Source of the DNA: Actinomycetota bacterium
Lineage (GTDB): Bacteria > Actinomycetota > Actinomycetes > Nanopelagicales > Nanopelagicaceae
Reading direction: 5' to 3'
Assembly (NCBI GenBank): GCA_026393015.1
Contig: JAPLBA010000013.1
Coordinates: forward strand, 1-46,316
Length of the DNA: 46,316 nucleotides
Below are positions 5,475-25,629 of this stretch, one piece after another (within the stretch, counting starts at the first letter, position 1; each line of letters opens with the position of its first letter). The notes below the pieces were generated by a model. The model saw only the letters and a list, made by a program, of their open reading frames with translations. It ran no database searches and was not told the DNA's origin. Both the position numbers and the translations under genes were made by a program.

Positions 5475-7060
5475 TGCGTCAGTGCCTTCTCCGCAGTTGC
5501 AATTGCAATCTTGAGATTATCTGCATTGATATCTCTGCTTGGCATCACAGCGATGATGACATTGAGCACGGAGTGATCTTCGGCAAGTGCTCGTTCAAAA
5601 TCTTTAAGATTCGCAACTCGGGTGACATGGACACCGAAACCAGAAGCGATAGCCGTGAGGTCACGATTGTGTGGGGTACCAAAAATCTCTTCGAAGTGAT
5701 CAATCCCACGTTGAGGCAGGGTAGAGAAAATTCCACCCCCATTATTATCTACCACCACGACAGTTAGATCTGGCGCATCGTTTAGTAGCGCATTTATGTC
5801 GTGCAGGAATGCGATATCTCCGAGGTAGGCAAACGTTCTCCCAGATCTTGCTCGGGAAATGCCAATAGCGGTAGAAATATTGCCATCGATTCCGGCCAGC
5901 CCGCGGTTTCCAAATACCCCGATATCGGCACGAGGCGCTGCAAAGGCTTCAATATCGCGAATGGGACGACTCGATCCAATGAAGAGCGAGCTGCCACTCG
6001 ATAGTGATCGAGCGAAAATAGCCGCCAATTTTTGTTCAGACCAAGTGGGCAAAGCAAGAGCGTCAGCGACTTTAGCGCTCGCTTGATGCCAAGCCTTAAG
6101 CCAATTCGGATCAGCATCGACATCAACGCGAGGAAGCGCCGCTAGTTGCACTTCATTTTTACGTAAGGGGTTCGATACTTCGTGATGAGAATCAATTCCG
6201 ATTACTCGCGACGTGCGAGTGATCAATGCCATGACGGACCTCGACAGTCCAATCTTTCCGATTACTAAAGCCACTTCAGGTTGCAACTTTTCACTTGCAA
6301 ATGTTGTGCCCACAAGTAACGAAGCATGTTGGATAGCCGCTGAATGACTCAGCGGATCTTCCGCGACTACCGGCCAACCCAGTCGCGTGGCCCAAGCTGA
6401 AATTTCCTGGCGGGAGAAAGTTCCTAACCCGTGTCCTACAACCACCACACCACGTTGACCCGAAGTGATGCCCAACTCTGAGAGAGTCGGCGCCATCTTC
6501 TTGGCCTGCGCGCTCACTTCAAACGCTGGGATCACTTGCGTATCGGCTTCTCCTTCAGGAAGAAGTGGTTCACGAAAAGCGATATTTATTTGCATCGGGC
6601 CATTCAAGCCATCTACTGCGCTATTAAAGCGATCGATCCATTCAAGCGATGTTCCAGCTTCGATCTCCAAGAAGTGGCGCAGAGCTGAGCCATAAAGAGT
6701 GCTTTGATTGGTTGTCTGATTAGAACCGATTCCCTGTAGCTCGCTGGGGCGATCTGCCGTGATCACAATGAGCGGAACATCGCTATGCGAAGCCTCCAAA
6801 ACTGCGGGGTGAAAATTGGCGGTCGCAGTTCCGCTGGTGCAGACGGTGGCTACTGGCCGTCCGCTAGCTTTACTGATTCCCAGGGCGACAAAACCGGCAG
6901 AGCGCTCATCAATGTGTATATGCCGATTGAATTGATCACGTCGTGCCAGCGCGAGTGCCAACGGCGCACTACGCGAGCCAGGTGCGATCACGACGTCTCG
7001 CACACCGACTGAATAGAGCGCGTCCGCGAGCGCTTCGGCCTGCAAAGTCGAGTCGTTCAT
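5471..7060 (-). CDS. menD: SEPHCHC synthase MenD
   Basis: MenD is a thiamine-diphosphate enzyme that joins 2-oxoglutarate-derived succinic semialdehyde to isochorismate. The 529-residue length is normal. The N-terminal domain has VVIAPGSRSAPLALAL, then HIDERSAGFVALG with the catalytic Glu, then VCTSGTATANFHPAV and ADRPSEL. The C-terminal cofactor domain has YLGDIAFLHD and VVVVDNNGGGIFSTLPQ, the ThDP-Mg motif. The start overlaps the menC stop in ATGA, and the stop overlaps the hydrolase start, so translation of the operon is probably coupled. Confidence 0.97.
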   Translation of the reverse strand: MNDSTLQAEALADALYSVGVRDVVIAPGSRSAPLALALARRDQFNRHIHIDERSAGFVALGISKASGRPVATVCTSGTATANFHPAVLEASHSDVPLIVITADRPSELQGIGSNQTTNQSTLYGSALRHFLEIEAGTSLEWIDRFNSAVDGLNGPMQINIAFREPLLPEGEADTQVIPAFEVSAQAKKMAPTLSELGITSGQRGVVVVGHGLGTFSRQEISAWATRLGWPVVAEDPLSHSAAIQHASLLVGTTFASEKLQPEVALVIGKIGLSRSVMALITRTSRVIGIDSHHEVSNPLRKNEVQLAALPRVDVDADPNWLKAWHQASAKVADALALPTWSEQKLAAIFARSLSSGSSLFIGSSRPIRDIEAFAAPRADIGVFGNRGLAGIDGNISTAIGISRARSGRTFAYLGDIAFLHDINALLNDAPDLTVVVVDNNGGGIFSTLPQRGIDHFEEIFGTPHNRDLTAIASGFGVHVTRVANLKDFERALAEDHSVLNVIIAVMPSRDINADNLKIAIATAEKALTQ

Positions 7061-8037
7061 CGACTCTCCAAAAACTCAAAAGTCATTGCGAGGCGATGCT
7101 GCCACCATTCGATCCGATCGGAAGGCGCTGCCCAGCGATCAAGCAGTTCAAGTGAGGGCGCCACATCTCGAAGCGAAATCGCGCCATCTTCAGCTACCAG
7201 CGAATGGGAAATAACATCCCCGCCGAGAAGATCGACGGTTCCTAACCCACAAGCTCCAAACAGCTTCGGAAGAGCGGCGGCTAACGCAAGACCAGCACGT
7301 ATACCGATACTCGTTTCAAGCGCACTGGAAACCACGATCGGCATATCGAGTTCTTTCGCAATATGCAGGGCGTTCTCCACTCCCCCCATCGGGGCCACTT
7401 TAAGAATTGCCACATCAGCAATATCGGAGAGGTCGCGCGTGTATCCCTCTTTACGAATACCTTCGTCAATAGCTAACGGCACCGGCACTGAAAGCTTCTC
7501 GTGCACCTGTGAGATTTCGCGAACGGTTGCACATGGTTGCTCGACGTATTCAAGAGTATTACCCAGAACTTCGTAAAACGCGCTGATCTGCTTCAATGCT
7601 TCGTTAACGCTCCAGGAGCCATTGGCGTCAATTCGAATCTTGCCAGAGTCACCAAGCGCCCGTTCAATCTCGATGAGTCGAGCAGTGTCTAGCGAAGAGT
7701 GCGCCCCAGCAACCTTGATCTTGGCGGTACGACAACCTTGGAAGAAGTTGAGTGCTGCTAATGCTTCCTCTGGCGTTCCATCAGGGATGGTGGCATTGAT
7801 CTCAATTGAATCGCGCTTGGGCGCTGGCCAACCAAGAAATGCAGCTTCGATTCCAGATGCCAGCCATCTACTAGCTTCTTCCACGCCATATTCCACGAAA
7901 GGCGAAAATTCTCCCCACCCGTGAGGGCCTTCAAAGAGCGCTACTTCACGAGTCGTAATCCCTCGGAACTTCTGCTTCAGCGGTATGGCTACAACGCGAA
8001 GTGAATCAGAGAGCTCAGCAAGTGATGGAAGGTTCAC
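7057..8037 (-). CDS. menC: o-Succinylbenzoate synthase MenC (enolase superfamily)
   Basis: MenC dehydrates SHCHC to o-succinylbenzoate. The 326-residue protein is the actinobacterial short type. Catalytic features of the enolase superfamily are visible: AKIKVAG (KxK lysine), RIDANGSW (metal Asp), YVEQPC (metal Glu), LAIDEGI (metal Asp) and [15 protein letters not shown] (second lysine). It starts at a GTG that overlaps the menB stop (GTGA), and its own stop overlaps the menD ATG. Because this gene sits inside the men operon it is the true MenC; the second MenC-like enolase at 20935-22032 is therefore likely to do something else. Confidence 0.95.
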
Positions 8038-17287: not shown

Positions 17288-19477
17288 ATGTCAAAGCCTG
17301 CACACCGCTCCTTCGCCGACGACCTCCGTGGTCGCGATGATGCCGCATTGGCTGCCCTGTTAGCTGCTCGCCCAGACTTGCTCTCACCAGTGCCACCAGA
17401 CATCAGCGCCCTGGCCGCACGAGCAAATTCCACCCCGAGCATTTCCCGAGCTCTAGATTCGCTCAATCAATGGGAATTAGAAGCGTTAGAACTTATGGCT
17501 TGTCTGGAAGAGCCAGTTTCGCTCAAAGATGTCGAATTTTATACAGGCGTTCCATCATCGAGTGTGGTCTCCCACCTCTATCGAATCTGCCTAATCTATA
17601 AAGACGAAGGTGCCTACCGAATTCCTCGCGGTGTACGAGATACTTTTGGTCCGGAACTATGTGGCCTTGGGCCGCGCCTCGGAAGTCGCATCGAGAAAAT
17701 TGATTTAAAGAAGGCGCCCGAGGCATCACAAGACATGTTGAAGAAACTCACCTGGGGGCCACCACGCGGCAGCATTAAGGATGTTAAGAATCCCGGACCT
17801 GGAATGCAATGGTTGTTAGATCAAGCAATTCTTGTCATCGCCGATTCGCATCACGTCATGCTTCCTGCGGAGCATGCAATTGCGTTACGTGGGGATAAAG
17901 TCCATCACGAGTATCACTCAGTTAAACCTTTACTCATTGGCGAAAGCGTGAAAGATGCAGATCGCGCTGGCGCTCATGAAGCCGCTGCCTTCTTAATGTG
18001 GGTTGAGGATCTATTAGAAGCCTGGTCGCGCGAACCTGGAAGCGCTTTACGCAGCGGCGGGATGAGTATTCGCGAACTTAAGCGCGTTGCCCAACTCTTG
18101 GGAGTGACCGAAGCGTGCGCGGCATTTGTGGCCGAGAGCGCATTCGCCATCGGACTCGTCTCTATCGATCTTGATGACCGCATCATGCCGACGAGTGCAT
18201 ACGATCTTTGGCTCGCACGAACTCCAGTAGAAAGATGGAGAGAGATTGCTGCCCACTGGCTCATTACTTCTCGAGCCGCGGGACTCTGTACTCCGAAAGA
18301 AGGTAAAGGTGTCGCTCCCCTAGGGCCTGAGTTAGACCGCGCCGCCGCGCCTGGACTGCGCACACTTACTCTCGAGTTACTCGCGACACATGCTGATCTT
18401 GCACCCACTCTCGATTCACTCATCGAATTAGTAGCGTGGAACCGCCCGCGGAGAGCAAAACATTTGCAAGCCGAGTTTGTGGAGTGGACAGTGCGTGAGG
18501 CCCATTGGCTTGGGATTACTGGCCGCGGAGCATTCACTTCATTTGCTGAGCAATTGATTGCTGACGAAGAACCAACTCTGCTCGCTACCCAACTCCCACC
18601 GTTGATCGATCATGTTCTCCTCCAAGGAGATCACACCGCTATTGCACCTGGACCTCTCTACCCAGAAATCTTTCGCGAAATATCCTCTATGGCAGAAGTG
18701 GAGAGCAGGGGTACAGCAACCGTTTTTAGATTCTCTGAAAAATCATTACGCCATGCGCTCGACGTAGGCTACGACGCGGAAAAAATCGAGGCCTTCATAA
18801 AAAGAGTTTCTAAAACCGAGGTGCCCCAGTCGCTCACCTATCAAATTCATGACATCGCCAAGAGGTATGGGCGCCTCCGGGTGGGATCTGTGCACTCTTA
18901 CTTGCGGTGCGATGACGAAGCGATACTTGCCGAAGCTATGCAAGATAAACGCCTCGTTGCTCTCGAACTTCGTCGCCTAGCACCCACCGTGATCATTTCG
19001 CCAGCTCCGCTTGAAGAAGTATTGGAGACGCTTCGCTCACATGGATATGCACCCGCCGCTGAAGGTAGAGACGGAATGACAACTCTTACTTCGCCGTCCG
19101 CTAAGAGGTCCAAATCCAGGCCACGACCACCCCGCCTCATTGGCGACTATTCGCTGCCAACACCCGAGTTACTCACCGTCGCATTGCGCGCACTACGTGC
19201 GGGTGAACATGTCTCAACACATCAACGTACTCTTCCTCAACTCGCAAAGACTCCGAGAACCACTGCAAGTGAAACTTTACGTTTTCTCCAAGAAATGAGC
19301 GGTACCGGCGGATCACTGTGGATCGGATACGCAGATACCGACGGCGGCCTGACACACAGAATCATCGAACCGATGGCTATCGCTGCCGGATATGTCACCG
19401 CATTTGATCAGCTCTCCGGGGAAATTAAGCGCTTCGCTATCGCTCGCATTTCTGGCGTCGCAGCAATCGATCAATGA
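17288..19477 (+). CDS. Helicase-associated protein with XPB-type Helicase_C_3 domain
   Basis: This 729-residue protein has no Walker A or DEAD/H motif, so it is not itself a helicase. Residues about 440-610 align clearly by eye with the first 165 residues of the XPB helicase at 23974: compare DIAKRYGRLRVGSV with DIADTMSRYGRLRLEA, and LEEVLETLRSHGY with VKQVLLRLGW. It matches the large protein encoded next to XPB in mycobacteria (Rv0862c type). The N-terminal half has helical, winged-helix-like stretches (VSLKDVEFYTGVPSSSVVSHLYRICLI). It probably works with XPB in DNA repair, but this is inference. Four genes separate the pair here. Confidence 0.8.
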   Translation: MSKPAHRSFADDLRGRDDAALAALLAARPDLLSPVPPDISALAARANSTPSISRALDSLNQWELEALELMACLEEPVSLKDVEFYTGVPSSSVVSHLYRICLIYKDEGAYRIPRGVRDTFGPELCGLGPRLGSRIEKIDLKKAPEASQDMLKKLTWGPPRGSIKDVKNPGPGMQWLLDQAILVIADSHHVMLPAEHAIALRGDKVHHEYHSVKPLLIGESVKDADRAGAHEAAAFLMWVEDLLEAWSREPGSALRSGGMSIRELKRVAQLLGVTEACAAFVAESAFAIGLVSIDLDDRIMPTSAYDLWLARTPVERWREIAAHWLITSRAAGLCTPKEGKGVAPLGPELDRAAAPGLRTLTLELLATHADLAPTLDSLIELVAWNRPRRAKHLQAEFVEWTVREAHWLGITGRGAFTSFAEQLIADEEPTLLATQLPPLIDHVLLQGDHTAIAPGPLYPEIFREISSMAEVESRGTATVFRFSEKSLRHALDVGYDAEKIEAFIKRVSKTEVPQSLTYQIHDIAKRYGRLRVGSVHSYLRCDDEAILAEAMQDKRLVALELRRLAPTVIISPAPLEEVLETLRSHGYAPAAEGRDGMTTLTSPSAKRSKSRPRPPRLIGDYSLPTPELLTVALRALRAGEHVSTHQRTLPQLAKTPRTTASETLRFLQEMSGTGGSLWIGYADTDGGLTHRIIEPMAIAAGYVTAFDQLSGEIKRFAIARISGVAAIDQ

Positions 19478-19525: not shown

Positions 19526-20791
19526 TTAACCCTTCACCACAAATTTATCCTCGGGCAGAATTTCTGGGATTCCGGAGATCACGGTAAAGAGATCATAAGA
19601 AGTCAATCCCGGATCACCTTGCTTATCAAAATCTACCTCCGACCAAGCCCCCACATAAGTTGCCGGTTTACCAGCGGCAATCGTCTTCACCGCTGCATCA
19701 AGTTTCTGCCAAGAACACTTGGTTCCTTTTGGACCAGAGACTTTCCTGAGCGCCGTAATCAAATCCTTGGTAGCCACACTTTTGGCGGAGACACTTGCCA
19801 AGCACGCTAGAACCGCAGCATCGTATGCAAGGGGCTCGTACCCCGTAAAAGTAAGGTCAGGAAATTTTGACTCGAATAGAGTTTGGAATGAATCCTGATT
19901 TTCCCCAGCGAATGTTGATGTTACTCCCCGCATACCTTCCACATACTTGGCACCGATAGAGGCAATGAGTGCCTTCGAGTTTAAAATATCTGTAGTAAAG
20001 GTGTTCTCGGGGTACCATTTCCCGGTGCTCGATAACGCCCGAACTAAATCACTGATCGTGCTTTGATTGTCGACCAATAGCCAACCGTCTGGAGCACCAT
20101 CGACTAGTTGCGCTGCCTGAGGTTTTAATGATGTTACATCAGAATTCCAACTTACTTCGGCGCCTATTTTTCCACCATTTGCGATCCAGGCTGCTTTAAA
20201 ATCTGCCACGAGAGCTTTATCGAAATCAGTTACAAGACTTCCAACATTGATTGTTGCATCTTCACCCAAGTTCAAAGCCATTGATGCAACCAAAGCTTTG
20301 GCTTGCTTGAGATCTGACGGGAAAGTTCTAAACAAAGTGTCCTTATCGGCCAAACTTGTAATGTTCTTGCTCGACGATAGTGGGCTAATCAAAATGACGT
20401 TATTAGGAACCGTGACTGCTTTCGCGATAGCCAAAGTAACGGAAGATGCCATGGATCCGATAACAACGTTGGCCTTCTTCGTCTTAACAAGTTTGGTTGC
20501 TGCAGCTACGCCTCCCGCTGCGCTCGTTTGGTCATCCTCGCTCCCAGCTAAGGTGCAGGACCCAGTCAACTTATTCTTCTTTATTGCAGCATTGACTTGA
20601 GAAATTCCTAATGCTGCGGCGCTTGCGAGTGAAGGACCGTATCCCTCAAGTTCACCAGTAAGCGGAAATACAGTGCCCACCTTGAGTGCGGCGGCGGCGG
20701 TCTTTGCCTCTGCAGGAATAACCGGGAGAATTAATCCAGTTGCGGACAAAAGTGCCACAGCAACCCTGAACTTAACAATGGATTTCATCAT
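19526..20791 (-). CDS. LIV-type ABC transporter substrate-binding protein (orphan)
   Basis: This is a secreted type I periplasmic-binding-fold protein of 421 residues. It has a signal peptide (FRVAVALLSATGLILPVIPAEA) and the LivJ-like core LKVGTVFPLTGELEGYGPSLASAAALGISQVN, EDDQTSAAGGVAAATKLV and VIGSMASSVTLAIAKA. No permease or ATPase gene is adjacent, so it must use transporter parts encoded elsewhere. It follows the racemase-like enolase gene on the same strand after a 143-bp gap, which suggests an amino acid or acyl-amino acid ligand. GGGAGG precedes the double ATG. A predicted signal peptidase I site is AEA. Confidence 0.88.
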   Translation of the reverse strand: MMKSIVKFRVAVALLSATGLILPVIPAEAKTAAAALKVGTVFPLTGELEGYGPSLASAAALGISQVNAAIKKNKLTGSCTLAGSEDDQTSAAGGVAAATKLVKTKKANVVIGSMASSVTLAIAKAVTVPNNVILISPLSSSKNITSLADKDTLFRTFPSDLKQAKALVASMALNLGEDATINVGSLVTDFDKALVADFKAAWIANGGKIGAEVSWNSDVTSLKPQAAQLVDGAPDGWLLVDNQSTISDLVRALSSTGKWYPENTFTTDILNSKALIASIGAKYVEGMRGVTSTFAGENQDSFQTLFESKFPDLTFTGYEPLAYDAAVLACLASVSAKSVATKDLITALRKVSGPKGTKCSWQKLDAAVKTIAAGKPATYVGAWSEVDFDKQGDPGLTSYDLFTVISGIPEILPEDKFVVKG

Positions 20792-20934: not shown

Positions 20935-22032
20935 CTAGATCGTGCGTTTGCTCACGGTAACGCTCTCCAGGAATGCGTGGTCGATCTCCACGCCAATCCC
21001 AGGCCCACTTGGCACACGAATGCGACCATCTACCATCACGAACGGTGTAGTAATGTCTCGTAGGTAGTAGCGATTAGAGGCAGAAGTGTCTCCGGGTAAG
21101 GTGAAGCCCGGTAGCGCAGCAAGGGCGAGATTTGCGGCGCGACCAATTCCAGTTTCGAGCATTCCGCCACACCACACTGGGATGCCTTCTTCAACGCAAA
21201 AATCATGAATCTTGATCGCTTCAAAGTATCCACCCACACGACCAGGTTTTATGTTGATAATCGTCGTTGCTTCCATTGCAATTGCATCACGCGCTGACTG
21301 CAACGAGGTAATTGATTCATCCAAGCAGACAGGAGTCTGAATGGCGCGTGAAAGTAATGCATGGCCAAGAACATCATGCTCATCAAGTGGTTGTTCGATG
21401 AGAAGCAAGTTGAACTCATCGAGTCCAGCGAGATGAGCTGCATCACCGCGCGAGTAAGCCTGGTTTGCATCGACTTGTAGGAGAATCTTTGGCCATGTTT
21501 CGCGGACGGTGCGAACCGGATCAATATCCCACCCTGGTTCAATCTTAAGTTTGATGCGGCGATAACCCTGATCAACGTAGTCGCCCACCTCTTCGAGCAG
21601 AGCGTCGATGCTGTTTGCGATTCCTACTGAAACGCCGCAATCAACTTCCTCTTTCGTGGCGCCAAAGAATGAGGCAAAAGAACGACCTCCATGCTTTAAC
21701 TCTGCATCAAGGAGGGCGGTTTCAATTGCCGCTTTAGCCATGTGATGTCCTAAGAATGGCTTCAGGATATCGGCAACTTCTTCGGCTAGAAAATCTCCAA
21801 CTTTTCGTAATGCTGGAACTAGAAAGCGTTCAAGCACATCTGCGCAGCCATGCGTGTACTCAGGCGAGTAGAGCGGCTCTGACATTGCGACACACTCTGC
21901 CCAACCATCGCCGACATCTGTGGTGACTTTGAGAATCAGTAAATCTCGAGCCGTCTGTGTACCAAACGATGTGCGGAAAGGACGCACTAAGGGCACACCC
22001 ACATGGCGAATCTCAATTTCATGAATGCGCAT
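20935..22032 (-). CDS. Enolase-superfamily MenC/N-succinylamino acid racemase-like enzyme
   Basis: This 365-residue protein is of the OSBS/NSAR subfamily, which holds o-succinylbenzoate synthases and N-succinyl (N-acyl) amino acid racemases. Catalytic features are RRIKLKIEPGWD (KxK), LLQVDANQAYS, LLIEQPLDEHD, VCLDESITS and INIKPGRVGGYFEAIK, plus the subfamily hallmark WCGGMLETGIGRAANLALAALPGFTLPGDTSAS. A separate menC sits in the men operon, so racemase activity is more likely here. The start at 22032 (MRIHEIEIRHVGVPL) has a strong GGAGG; the track start at 22302 is inside the upstream gene. It overlaps the GNAT gene by 14 bp, pointing to one transcript. Confidence 0.82.
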   Translation of the reverse strand: MRIHEIEIRHVGVPLVRPFRTSFGTQTARDLLILKVTTDVGDGWAECVAMSEPLYSPEYTHGCADVLERFLVPALRKVGDFLAEEVADILKPFLGHHMAKAAIETALLDAELKHGGRSFASFFGATKEEVDCGVSVGIANSIDALLEEVGDYVDQGYRRIKLKIEPGWDIDPVRTVRETWPKILLQVDANQAYSRGDAAHLAGLDEFNLLLIEQPLDEHDVLGHALLSRAIQTPVCLDESITSLQSARDAIAMEATTIINIKPGRVGGYFEAIKIHDFCVEEGIPVWCGGMLETGIGRAANLALAALPGFTLPGDTSASNRYYLRDITTPFVMVDGRIRVPSGPGIGVEIDHAFLESVTVSKRTI

Positions 22033-22816
22033 CTTTTTCCTCCAGTACGTAGCAGTGATCTTGTGTAAATCCGGTGATCTTCCAGCCTGATGCCATGCGT
22101 GGTTCCAGCGCACCACGAACATGCTGACGCCAATTTCGAGCAAGTTCCATATTCTGCGAGCGCAACTCGGTGATATTTCCAGGAAGGGCGACACGTACTT
22201 CTTTCGCGTCCGACGTGACCTCTTGCGCCACAGGTTCTCCATTGATTTCAGCGAGTAGCAGTGGGGCATTTGATTGTGCGTGTGTCGCGCCAGCAAGTGC
22301 ACTCTTTGTTCGTGCTGAATTTAAGTGCCAGTAGGCCATCGCGCGATCACTGGCATCCCCAGCGTTTACTGCATCTGGCATCTGTCCATAAAAATCCGGA
22401 TAGTAATAGGGTATTTCGACGCCGAGTTTTGTGAGATTGAGATTTGCGTTGCGCGAAACTAATGGGTCAAAGGTCCATGTAATTAATTCGTAGCCATGTG
22501 CCATTGCCCAATCCCGTTGATGAACCTTGAGCGCATACCCAATATTTCGATCGCGGTAGGCATCGAGTACACCTGCCATGTGCGAGTGCAAGTGCAAATG
22601 GTCGTCGCCGCCTTTCGAAGGAAAAGCAAATGCCGCCCCCACGCAATCTTCACCAATAAATGCTCCAGAGAGGTAGGCCCCGCTATGTACCATGGCTTGC
22701 AAGAGGTTAGGAGTAATTTGGGTGCCCTCATCCCCAGGCCAGACCAGATCGAAGATCTCTCGAGCCAGGCGTTGGCGCGGTAACTCCGAGAGGATCTCGA
22801 CTCTGACTTCGCCCAT
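22019..22816 (-). CDS. GNAT-fold acyltransferase (COG3375-like; candidate N-succinyltransferase)
   Basis: I start this 265-residue protein at ATG 22816 (MGEVRVEILSEL); the longer track ORF runs into the divergent gene. The acetyl-CoA-binding-like segment is LHLHSHMAGVLDAYRDRNIGYALKVHQRDWAMAHGY. The family motif ITWTFDPLVSRNANLNLTKLGVEIPYYYPDFYG follows, as I recall from COG3375 proteins. In Geobacillus a GNAT protein of this kind, encoded with the racemase, succinylates D-amino acids. Here its end overlaps the racemase-like gene, and the M20 deacylase gene diverges from it. A TATCTT box lies 26 nt upstream of the start. The acyl donor and acceptor cannot be determined from sequence. Confidence 0.75.
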   Translation of the reverse strand: MGEVRVEILSELPRQRLAREIFDLVWPGDEGTQITPNLLQAMVHSGAYLSGAFIGEDCVGAAFAFPSKGGDDHLHLHSHMAGVLDAYRDRNIGYALKVHQRDWAMAHGYELITWTFDPLVSRNANLNLTKLGVEIPYYYPDFYGQMPDAVNAGDASDRAMAYWHLNSARTKSALAGATHAQSNAPLLLAEINGEPVAQEVTSDAKEVRVALPGNITELRSQNMELARNWRQHVRGALEPRMASGWKITGFTQDHCYVLEEKDAHS

Positions 22817-23921
22817 GTCCCTACTTAACCACTTCGAGTGGCAAGATAACCATATGGACCTCGTTCGTCGCCTTGTGGAGATCTCCTCCCCCACTGAAGA
22901 TCTCAATGCCTGTCGAAGAGTGATCGATGAGGCAAACGCCATTCTTAATGAACTTCTGGGTTCACCAGGTGAGGTAAAAGATATTCTCGGACGCCCCACC
23001 TTGCGATGGGGAAGTGCCACACCGCGCGTTCTACTACTCACCCACTTAGATACCGTCTGGCCACACGGCTCTTTCGAACCACTCTGGCAGGTGAGTGGTG
23101 ATGTGATTCGTGGTCCAGGAGTCTTCGACATGAAAGCTGGCTTCGTACAAGCCGCCTATGCACTTCAATCTCTTACCAATCGTGATGGCGTCACCATCCT
23201 GGCGACAACGGATGAGGAGACCGGCAGCGAATGTTCGAGAGCGCTTATTGAAGAGATAGCAGCTGGTGCAGAAGCCGTGCTGGTTTTTGAAGCATCCCTT
23301 GATGGAAAATTAAAGACCGCACGCAAAGGCACCTCGATGTATCGGGTTATTGTGGAGGGCAGAGCAGCGCATGCCGGTCTCGAACCAGAGAAAGGCATAA
23401 ACGCCACCTTAGAAATTGCCACGCTCTACCCGGCAATTCTCGCTGCTGCGAAAAGTAGCGTTGGCACCACAGTAACGCCTACCGTTTTGCACTCAGGTAC
23501 CACTCTCAATACCGTGCCGGCGCTCGCACAATTAGATATCGATGTACGGGCTTTTACAATTGCTGAGCAGAGTCGCGTTCATGCTGAAATAACATCTCTA
23601 GCGGGCACCACGAGCGGTGGTGCATCTGTACGGATAGAAGGTGGCGTGAATCGACCACCACTTGATCCCTCTTCAAGTGCTCAACTCTTTGAAATGGCTG
23701 TGAAGTGTGCAGAAGAACTTGGCATGCCAGAATTAGGTAGCGCTGAGGTGGGCGGGGCAAGTGATGGAAACTTCACCGCCGCGTTGGGCATACCGACTAT
23801 CGATGGAATCGGTGCTGTCGGCGAAGGCGCTCATGCGGCGAACGAGTGGGCAAGTGCCGCCGCCATTCCTGAGCGCGCCCGGTTGGCCAGCGCTCTTATT
23901 ACTAAAATTCTCGCTCAATAG
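22815..23921 (+). CDS. M20 family metallopeptidase/deacylase
   Basis: This is a zinc-dependent M20 hydrolase of 368 residues, near the glutamate carboxypeptidase (CPG2) group. Metal and catalytic motifs are LLLTHLDTVWPHG, GPGVFDMKAGF, TTDEETGSE (Glu pair), VLVFEAS, and the C-terminal VGEGAHAANEW with the last histidine. The dimerization domain lies at about 170-285. I start it at ATG 22815 (MSLLNHFEWQDNHMDLV) because the first helix fits the family; ATG 22854 (MDLVRRLVEISSPTED) is the alternative. Next to the racemase and GNAT genes, it may remove succinyl from N-succinyl-L-amino acids, but a general peptidase role is equally possible on sequence alone. Confidence 0.82.
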   Translation: MSLLNHFEWQDNHMDLVRRLVEISSPTEDLNACRRVIDEANAILNELLGSPGEVKDILGRPTLRWGSATPRVLLLTHLDTVWPHGSFEPLWQVSGDVIRGPGVFDMKAGFVQAAYALQSLTNRDGVTILATTDEETGSECSRALIEEIAAGAEAVLVFEASLDGKLKTARKGTSMYRVIVEGRAAHAGLEPEKGINATLEIATLYPAILAAAKSSVGTTVTPTVLHSGTTLNTVPALAQLDIDVRAFTIAEQSRVHAEITSLAGTTSGGASVRIEGGVNRPPLDPSSSAQLFEMAVKCAEELGMPELGSAEVGGASDGNFTAALGIPTIDGIGAVGEGAHAANEWASAAAIPERARLASALITKILAQ

Positions 23922-23973: not shown

Positions 23974-25629
23974 ATGACCGACGGCCCGCTTATCGTCCAA
24001 TCCGATAAGACAATTCTCTTAGATACCGACCATGCCTTGGCGGGTGAGTGCCGTCGCGCAATCGCTCCCTTTGCAGAGTTAGAGCGTGCACCGGAACACA
24101 TGCACACCTACCGACTCACCCCTCTTGGTTTATGGAATGCGCGCGCAGCTGGTCATGATGCCGAGCAAGTCATTGACATCTTGATTCGTTATTCTCGTTA
24201 TGCGGTGCCACATGCACTCCTTGTCGATATTGCCGACACCATGTCGCGCTACGGTCGTCTCCGCCTTGAAGCTCATCCCGTGCATGGCCTTGTGCTTGTC
24301 AGCAATGATCGCGCTGTGCTGGAAGAGGTGTTGCGCTCCAAAAAGATGGTTCCACTCATGGGCGCTCGTATAGACCACGAAATGGTTGCGGTACATCCGA
24401 GTGAACGCGGACACGTCAAGCAAGTCTTACTACGCCTAGGTTGGCCTGCAGAAGATTTTGCAGGTTATGTCGATGGTGAAGCACACCCCATCTCCCTTAA
24501 AGAAGAGGGGTGGAAACTTCGCGATTATCAGAAACACGCCGCTGAAAACTTTTGGCATGGCGGTTCTGGTGTTGTCGTCCTCCCTTGCGGTGCCGGAAAA
24601 ACCATGGTGGGTGCCGCCGCGATGGCGCTCGCCCAAGCCACCACGCTCATTTTGGTCACTAATACTGTTGCCGCCAGACAATGGCGCGATGAGCTACTCA
24701 AACGCACCAACTTAACTGACGAGGAAATAGGTGAGTATTCCGGAGCGAAGAAAGAGATTCGCCCAGTCACTATTGCGACATATCAAGTGATGACCACAAA
24801 GCGAAAAGGTGTTTATGCGCACCTCGAGCTCTTCGATTCACGCGACTGGGGCTTAATTATTTACGACGAAGTACACCTACTCCCCGCACCAATCTTCCGC
24901 TTCACGGCCGATATTCAATCGAGGCGTCGCCTTGGACTTACGGCCACACTCATTCGTGAAGATGGCCACGAAGGTGATGTCTTTTCACTCATCGGTCCAA
25001 AGCGCTACGACGCTCCATGGAAAGAGATTGAAGCCCAGGGTTACATCGCGCCCGCTGATTGCGTCGAAGTGCGTGTGACTTTGACGGATGCGGAACGACT
25101 ACTTTACGCAACGGCCGAGCCAGAAGAACGTTACCGTTATTGCGCAACCACACAAACAAAGAGTCGCCTTGTGGAATCCCTCGCTCGTCACCATGCAAAT
25201 GATCAAGTACTCGTCATTGCGCAATACATTGACCAGATCGATGAATTAGGTGAACGCTTAGGCGCACCCATCATCAAAGGTGAAACACCTGTGAAGGAAC
25301 GCGAGCGGCTCTTTCAACTCTTTCGCACCGGCGAAGTAAAATGTTTAGTAGTTTCAAAGGTAGCGAACTTCTCGATTGATCTCCCAGAAGCCTCTATTGC
25401 TATTCAAGTGTCAGGATCGTTTGGCTCCAGGCAAGAAGAGGCACAGCGGCTGGGTCGAATCTTGCGCCCCAAGGCAGATGGACGTAGTGCGCGCTTTTAT
25501 AGCGTGGTTGCCAGAGATACCGTTGATCAAGATTTCGCTGCGCACCGCCAACGTTTTCTGGCCGAGCAAGGTTATGCATACCGAATTGTTGATGCCGACG
25601 ACGTATTTAGCGGAACCGCCGAGATTTAG
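23974..25629 (+). CDS. XPB-type DNA helicase (superfamily 2)
   Basis: This 551-residue ATP-dependent 3'-5' helicase is related to eukaryotic XPB/ERCC3. An N-terminal Helicase_C_3-like domain (1-165) is followed by the SF2 core: LRDYQKHAAENF (Q/I region), VVLPCGAGKTMVG (Walker A near 206), IIYDEVHLLPA (DEVH near 298), LGLTATLIREDGHEGD with the XPB-specific RED motif, and VSKVANFSIDLPEASIAIQVSGSFGSRQEEAQRLGRILRP (motifs V and VI). Length matches bacterial XPBs, which lack the eukaryotic extensions. Its partner-like protein lies 4.5 kb upstream on the same strand. The stop overlaps the convergent DUF4031 gene by 23 bp. Confidence 0.93.
   Translation: MTDGPLIVQSDKTILLDTDHALAGECRRAIAPFAELERAPEHMHTYRLTPLGLWNARAAGHDAEQVIDILIRYSRYAVPHALLVDIADTMSRYGRLRLEAHPVHGLVLVSNDRAVLEEVLRSKKMVPLMGARIDHEMVAVHPSERGHVKQVLLRLGWPAEDFAGYVDGEAHPISLKEEGWKLRDYQKHAAENFWHGGSGVVVLPCGAGKTMVGAAAMALAQATTLILVTNTVAARQWRDELLKRTNLTDEEIGEYSGAKKEIRPVTIATYQVMTTKRKGVYAHLELFDSRDWGLIIYDEVHLLPAPIFRFTADIQSRRRLGLTATLIREDGHEGDVFSLIGPKRYDAPWKEIEAQGYIAPADCVEVRVTLTDAERLLYATAEPEERYRYCATTQTKSRLVESLARHHANDQVLVIAQYIDQIDELGERLGAPIIKGETPVKERERLFQLFRTGEVKCLVVSKVANFSIDLPEASIAIQVSGSFGSRQEEAQRLGRILRPKADGRSARFYSVVARDTVDQDFAAHRQRFLAEQGYAYRIVDADDVFSGTAEI

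Follow-up and report, generated by a model that had tools for sequence, protein, structure and literature searches.

Can a three-gene locus in a small actinobacterial genome turn D- into L-amino acids, and which of its genes belong together? In this study we focus on a window of 46,316 nucleotides (the whole stretch of DNA that was analysed), which belongs to a Nanopelagicaceae genome of 1.81 Mb in 163 contigs. A preliminary description had placed three adjacent genes in it, for an NSAR-like enolase, a GNAT transferase and an M20 deacylase, and all three lie where it put them, with corrected starts (Table 1). The same gene set, GNAT, OSBS/NSAR enolase and M20 deacylase, reportedly makes up the NSAR pathway of Geobacillus kaustophilus, in which D- to L-conversion is irreversible; the likeness to the window lies in the three protein types. 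For the separate steps, a passage of PMC8762209, citing Sakai et al. (2006), describes the N-acetylation or N-succinylation of D-Phe, D-Tyr and D-Trp by a GNAT. The Geobacillus NSAR together with an L-succinylase leads to L-amino acids (PMC7431475), and the Amycolatopsis T-1-60 enzyme racemizes N-acetyl-methionine (PMC8142540, Table 1).

Table 1 Features of the window discussed here, with coordinates, strand, protein length and basis of assignment.
Feature	Coordinates	Strand	Length	Basis
Helicase_C_3 protein, conserved flank on the opposite side of the site	17288..19477	+		Pfam, synteny
LIV-type (Peripla_BP_6) substrate-binding protein, 3' of the enolase	19526..20791	-		Pfam
Enolase, OSBS/NSAR subfamily, predicted N-acyl (N-succinyl) amino acid racemase	20935..22032	-	365 aa	TIGR01928, 1SJA match, catalytic residues, clade
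GNAT N-acyltransferase, proposed D-amino acid N-succinyl/acetyltransferase	22019..22816	-	265 aa	Predicted GNAT fold, co-occurrence with enolase
M20 metallo-deacylase (carboxypeptidase G2-like), proposed N-acyl-L-amino acid deacylase	22854 (or 22815)..23921	+		Pfam M20
XPB/ERCC3-type helicase, conserved on one flank of what appears to be the ancestral cassette site	23974..25629	+		Pfam, synteny
Men-operon MenC (o-succinylbenzoate synthase)	7057..8037	-		PRK02901

The open reading frame listed for the enolase (20935-22302) is too long, carrying 90 extra residues ahead of the conserved start MRIHEIEI, and alignment moved the start to 22032. Enolase and GNAT, both on the minus strand, overlap by 14 bases, an arrangement from which the pair looks translationally coupled. 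GNAT and M20 are divergent, with starts at most 37 bases apart (window 22815-22854), or overlapping if M20 starts at 22815; of the two in-frame M20 starts, 22854 is the more likely, because for most homologues in relatives the alignment sets in at residue 14-18 of the longer form. The stretch between the GNAT and M20 starts showed no promoter-like site, and a promoter and terminator scan returned sites no commoner than in shuffled sequences. Among members of the genus, dN/dS ranges over 0.03-0.06 (enolase), 0.08-0.21 (GNAT) and 0.05-0.08 (M20); all three are therefore genuine genes under purifying selection and not chance open reading frames.

The enolase scores 313.1 bits against the NCBIfam model of the OSBS/NSAR subfamily (TIGR01928, cut-off 200.65), and at most 128 bits against every other listed enolase family. 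Its best match in the PDB is the N-acylamino acid racemase of Amycolatopsis T-1-60 (1SJA; 478 bits, about 60% identity over the full length). The KxK, D, E, D and K catalytic set that the preliminary description had read in it is complete, and the six residues (K161, K163, D188, E213, D238 and K262) are invariant in an alignment of 14 diverse sequences. In a quick tree, the window enolase sits in a family clade (SH-aLRT 99) within an actinobacterial clade (SH-aLRT 99) that holds the Streptomyces and Amycolatopsis enzymes, and the men-operon MenC of Enterococcus faecalis, the single confirmed men-operon reference of the OSBS/NSAR subfamily, falls outside, so that the window enolase stands apart from the men-operon MenC that could be compared. 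Inside the clade lies a Streptomyces enolase (L084) that differs from 1SJA at 14 of 368 aligned positions, a 96% twin, and is encoded in a cluster of the order amidohydrolase-M20-GNAT-enolase-HTH-serine hydrolases. The T-1-60 racemase (1SJA, 4A6G), whose function has been measured, shares both clade and catalytic residues with the window enolase, a predicted racemase. The N-acylamino acid racemase of Deinococcus radiodurans (1R0M family), encoded on plasmid MP1, also has a GNAT nearby, but it is only about 42% identical, substrate-binding proteins stand between enolase and GNAT, and no M20 adjoins. Residue R265 (R266 in T-1-60), which we take to be an NSAR marker, was dropped as a discriminator between NSAR and OSBS, as the E. 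faecalis men-operon MenC has it too.

The transferase gave no family match in Pfam or NCBIfam and no convincing match among PDB sequences. Its AlphaFold model, built with 61 homologues, has a mean pLDDT of 95 and superimposes on solved GNATs with a TM-score of up to 0.85 of the target; moreover, a CoA loop of the R-x-x-G-x-A type (RDRNIGYAL at residue 88) can be read from its sequence. By its predicted fold, the cassette transferase is a member of the GNAT superfamily. A second, stand-alone GNAT homologue (44% identity), with no second enolase, is found in two genus-mates (G001:C139:8823-9284 and G003:C36:3599-4060). The deacylase contains the Pfam domains Peptidase_M20 and M20_dimer. Carboxypeptidase G2 (1CG2) is its closest solved M20 by sequence, and in the alignment of the two the zinc-site set of that enzyme has its equivalents in the window M20.

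To what extent these genes travel together was followed in 100 relative genomes, each searched for every cassette part. The GNAT is present in 35, and the enolase, at more than 55% identity, in the same 35; an enolase match of 39% identity in genome G061 is of a different type and was left out of this count. Both genes are thus found in 35 genomes, neither in 65, and one without the other in none (Fisher p 9e-28, a value that is overstated since related genomes are non-independent). In the window's family (f1, window included) the pair is present in 29 of 61 genomes, and its presence is mixed within genera g2, g7, g15, g17 and g8. With the M20 tree as a proxy for the species tree, presence switches at least 11 times, both genes each time. 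Furthermore, of 90 NSAR loci (80 named ones in GTDB genomes, 10 in a plasmid collection) 76 have a GNAT close to the enolase, 74 of them within 300 bases. Enolase and GNAT come and go as one unit. The co-occurrence in relatives that the preliminary description envisaged is borne out for this pair and, together with the place of the enolase apart from the men-operon MenC, favours its pathway reading; the M20 is found with the pair but also in 30 family genomes that lack it.

Counting those 30, the M20 is present in 59 of the 61 family genomes; it is therefore a core gene of the family, not dedicated to the D-to-L pathway. An M20 lies near the enolase in 41 of the 90 NSAR loci, and it adjoins the pair in the window's genus, in G016 and G010, and at loci L113 and L125, while most pair-bearing family genomes have the pair located away from it. 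Four pair-bearing genomes from other families (G071, G076, G079 and G093) each have 18-39 M20-like candidates, of which the one nearest in sequence to the window M20 is the copy near the GNAT or enolase. Family M20s and NSAR-linked M20s of named species fall in one tree, L113 and L125 next to the family, and the window M20 is the orthologue of those that accompany NSAR loci in many families. Two more distant relatives, L113 (a Nanopelagicales MAG) and L125, contain XPB, M20, GNAT, enolase and second helicase in the order of the window, and family genomes that lack the pair here have helicase, M20 and XPB contiguous. On the simplest reading, M20-GNAT-enolase between two helicases would be ancestral, and the pair would have been lost or moved in many lineages with the M20 kept. 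The M20 would then have another use, or be a broad N-acyl amino acid hydrolase; where the pair is missing it is possibly a relic.

The surroundings of the pair are less constant. The preliminary description had noted a LIV-type binding protein after the enolase. It does stand there in the window and in two of its three genus-mates, G001 and G003, and is absent at this place in G002; being confined to one genus, it was rejected as a fixed part of the cassette, and its link to the pathway is weak. Neighbours of the pair vary among genera, and no dedicated transporter is conserved with it in the family. In one genome (G020, L209:7590-10068) the genes next after the pair encode two MFS transporters; that for the first shares 8 bases with the enolase gene and is a candidate to provide the carrier of the pathway. 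Another (G049, L215:7033-8313) has a DAO-family FAD oxidoreductase convergent to the pair, whose best NCBIfam match, D-amino acid dehydrogenase, is far below cut-off, and in G054 a TrpB-like enzyme and an amino acid dehydrogenase neighbour the moved pair. Across the 90 NSAR loci, S12 serine hydrolases are found in 40, oligopeptide ABC genes in 38, PucR-type regulators in 28 and amidohydrolase_3 in 11, and one S12 relative in the PDB list is an alkaline D-peptidase. In larger actinobacteria, a locus with S12 hydrolases, peptide transporters and D-aminoacylase-like enzymes fits the catabolism of peptides with D-residues. A search at E 1e-30 found no S12 D-peptidase homologue in any family genome; streamlined cells therefore seem to keep just the conversion core, and D-amino acids would have to come in free or be set free by other enzymes; dissolved peptidoglycan, which the preliminary description proposed, is a possible source. 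The nearest named relatives are mostly genomes from lakes and rivers, and the closest named enolases come from records such as a Lac Pavin MAG, one called RH-23may17 and another from surface water, so that the organism probably lives in freshwater plankton. The selected acI papers, a part of that literature, yielded no mention of D-amino acids or racemases.

That the enolase instead duplicates the o-succinylbenzoate synthase, or works chiefly as an OSBS and racemizes only incidentally, would accord with the true OSBS enzymes in its subfamily, the E. faecalis member of which lies in a men operon, but we consider it very improbable. A separate true menC, already pointed out in the preliminary description, passes PRK02901 with 372 bits (cut-off 288) and adjoins menD and menB. 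The window genome has just three matches to the enolase C-terminal family, namely the cassette enolase, this MenC and a weakly matching protein of 430 aa, by its length probably the phosphopyruvate enolase. A classical MenC match is found in 61 of 61 family genomes (weak in G051) and a MenD match in 59 (all except G013 and G051), so the cassette enolase is not needed as an OSBS in the family. Moreover, G071 and G093, each at least 98% complete, possess enolase, GNAT and M20 and lack both MenD and MenC; their enolase therefore cannot serve as an OSBS for menaquinone. The enolase is tied to the GNAT and not to men genes. With a separate MenC at hand and the cassette present where men genes are missing, menaquinone synthesis was rejected as its main function. 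Two genomes, G067 and G076, contain MenD and no classical MenC, and there the enolase may act as an OSBS, a double role with racemization being possible. OSBS/NSAR enzymes can be promiscuous, and some OSBS side activity of the cassette enolase is possible as well.

We consider it likely that the cassette converts D- to L-amino acids via N-acylated intermediates. In the proposed mechanism, the GNAT would acylate a free D-amino acid using succinyl-CoA (or acetyl-CoA), the enolase would racemize the N-acyl-D form by a two-lysine 1,1-proton transfer with a bound divalent metal, and the M20 would hydrolyse the N-acyl-L form, pulling the sequence one way. The observations cover the gene identities, the catalytic residues, the clade, the coupling of GNAT and enolase and the orthology of the M20, whereas we infer the substrates, the acyl donor, the direction, the partnership of the M20 in this cell and the nutritional use. 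The presence of the M20 irrespective of the pair, and the frequent siting of the pair elsewhere in the genome, suggest another arrangement, in which GNAT and enolase form the D-to-L module, a different hydrolase does the deacylation and the M20 next to them works separately as a core peptidase. This is unlikely in our view, given the orthology of the window M20 with those beside NSAR loci. It is also at odds with L113 and L125, where the three genes lie between the same XPB and helicase flanks, an arrangement suggesting that they stood together ancestrally. Less likely still is that the same chemistry has another purpose, D-amino acid detoxification or N-acyl amino acid salvage, rather than feeding on D-amino acids: the want of a conserved transporter and the differing neighbours in the family would suit it, but the recurrence of the locus in larger actinobacteria with peptide uptake genes and with D-peptidase-like and D-aminoacylase-like hydrolases points to catabolism. 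The chances are about even that a minimal, patchy GNAT-enolase accessory module, together with a core M20 that is kept where the module is missing, lets some streamlined Nanopelagicales-related actinobacteria draw on the D-amino acids in lake water.

With good support, the cassette can be added to the known NSAR D-to-L pathway as a putative new member, found in a streamlined lineage. What sets it apart from that of Geobacillus kaustophilus is its M20, a divergent, carboxypeptidase G2-like core gene of the family, and the separate MenC in a genome of 1.8 Mb. The pathway type is already known; what is added, and well supported, is the case of a streamlined lineage, the clean presence and absence of the pair, an apparent ancestral site and a likely menC mislabel. 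In dissolved organic matter, D-amino acids serve as biomarkers of bacteria; which organisms consume them is not well settled. If the module works as proposed, one gene pair would predict which members of a small-genome family use D-amino acids. Racemases labelled menC (o-succinylbenzoate synthase) in public records hide this trait from metabolic reconstructions, which amounts to a systematic mislabel. Among plasmid records in public databases, of which NZ_CP107961.1 and NC_000958.1 are examples, most of those with annotation call the NSAR-type enolase next to a GNAT menC, o-succinylbenzoate synthase. In two draft genomes (G037:C19 and G047:C184) the enolase is in two pieces, one with an in-frame stop, through either decay or assembly error.
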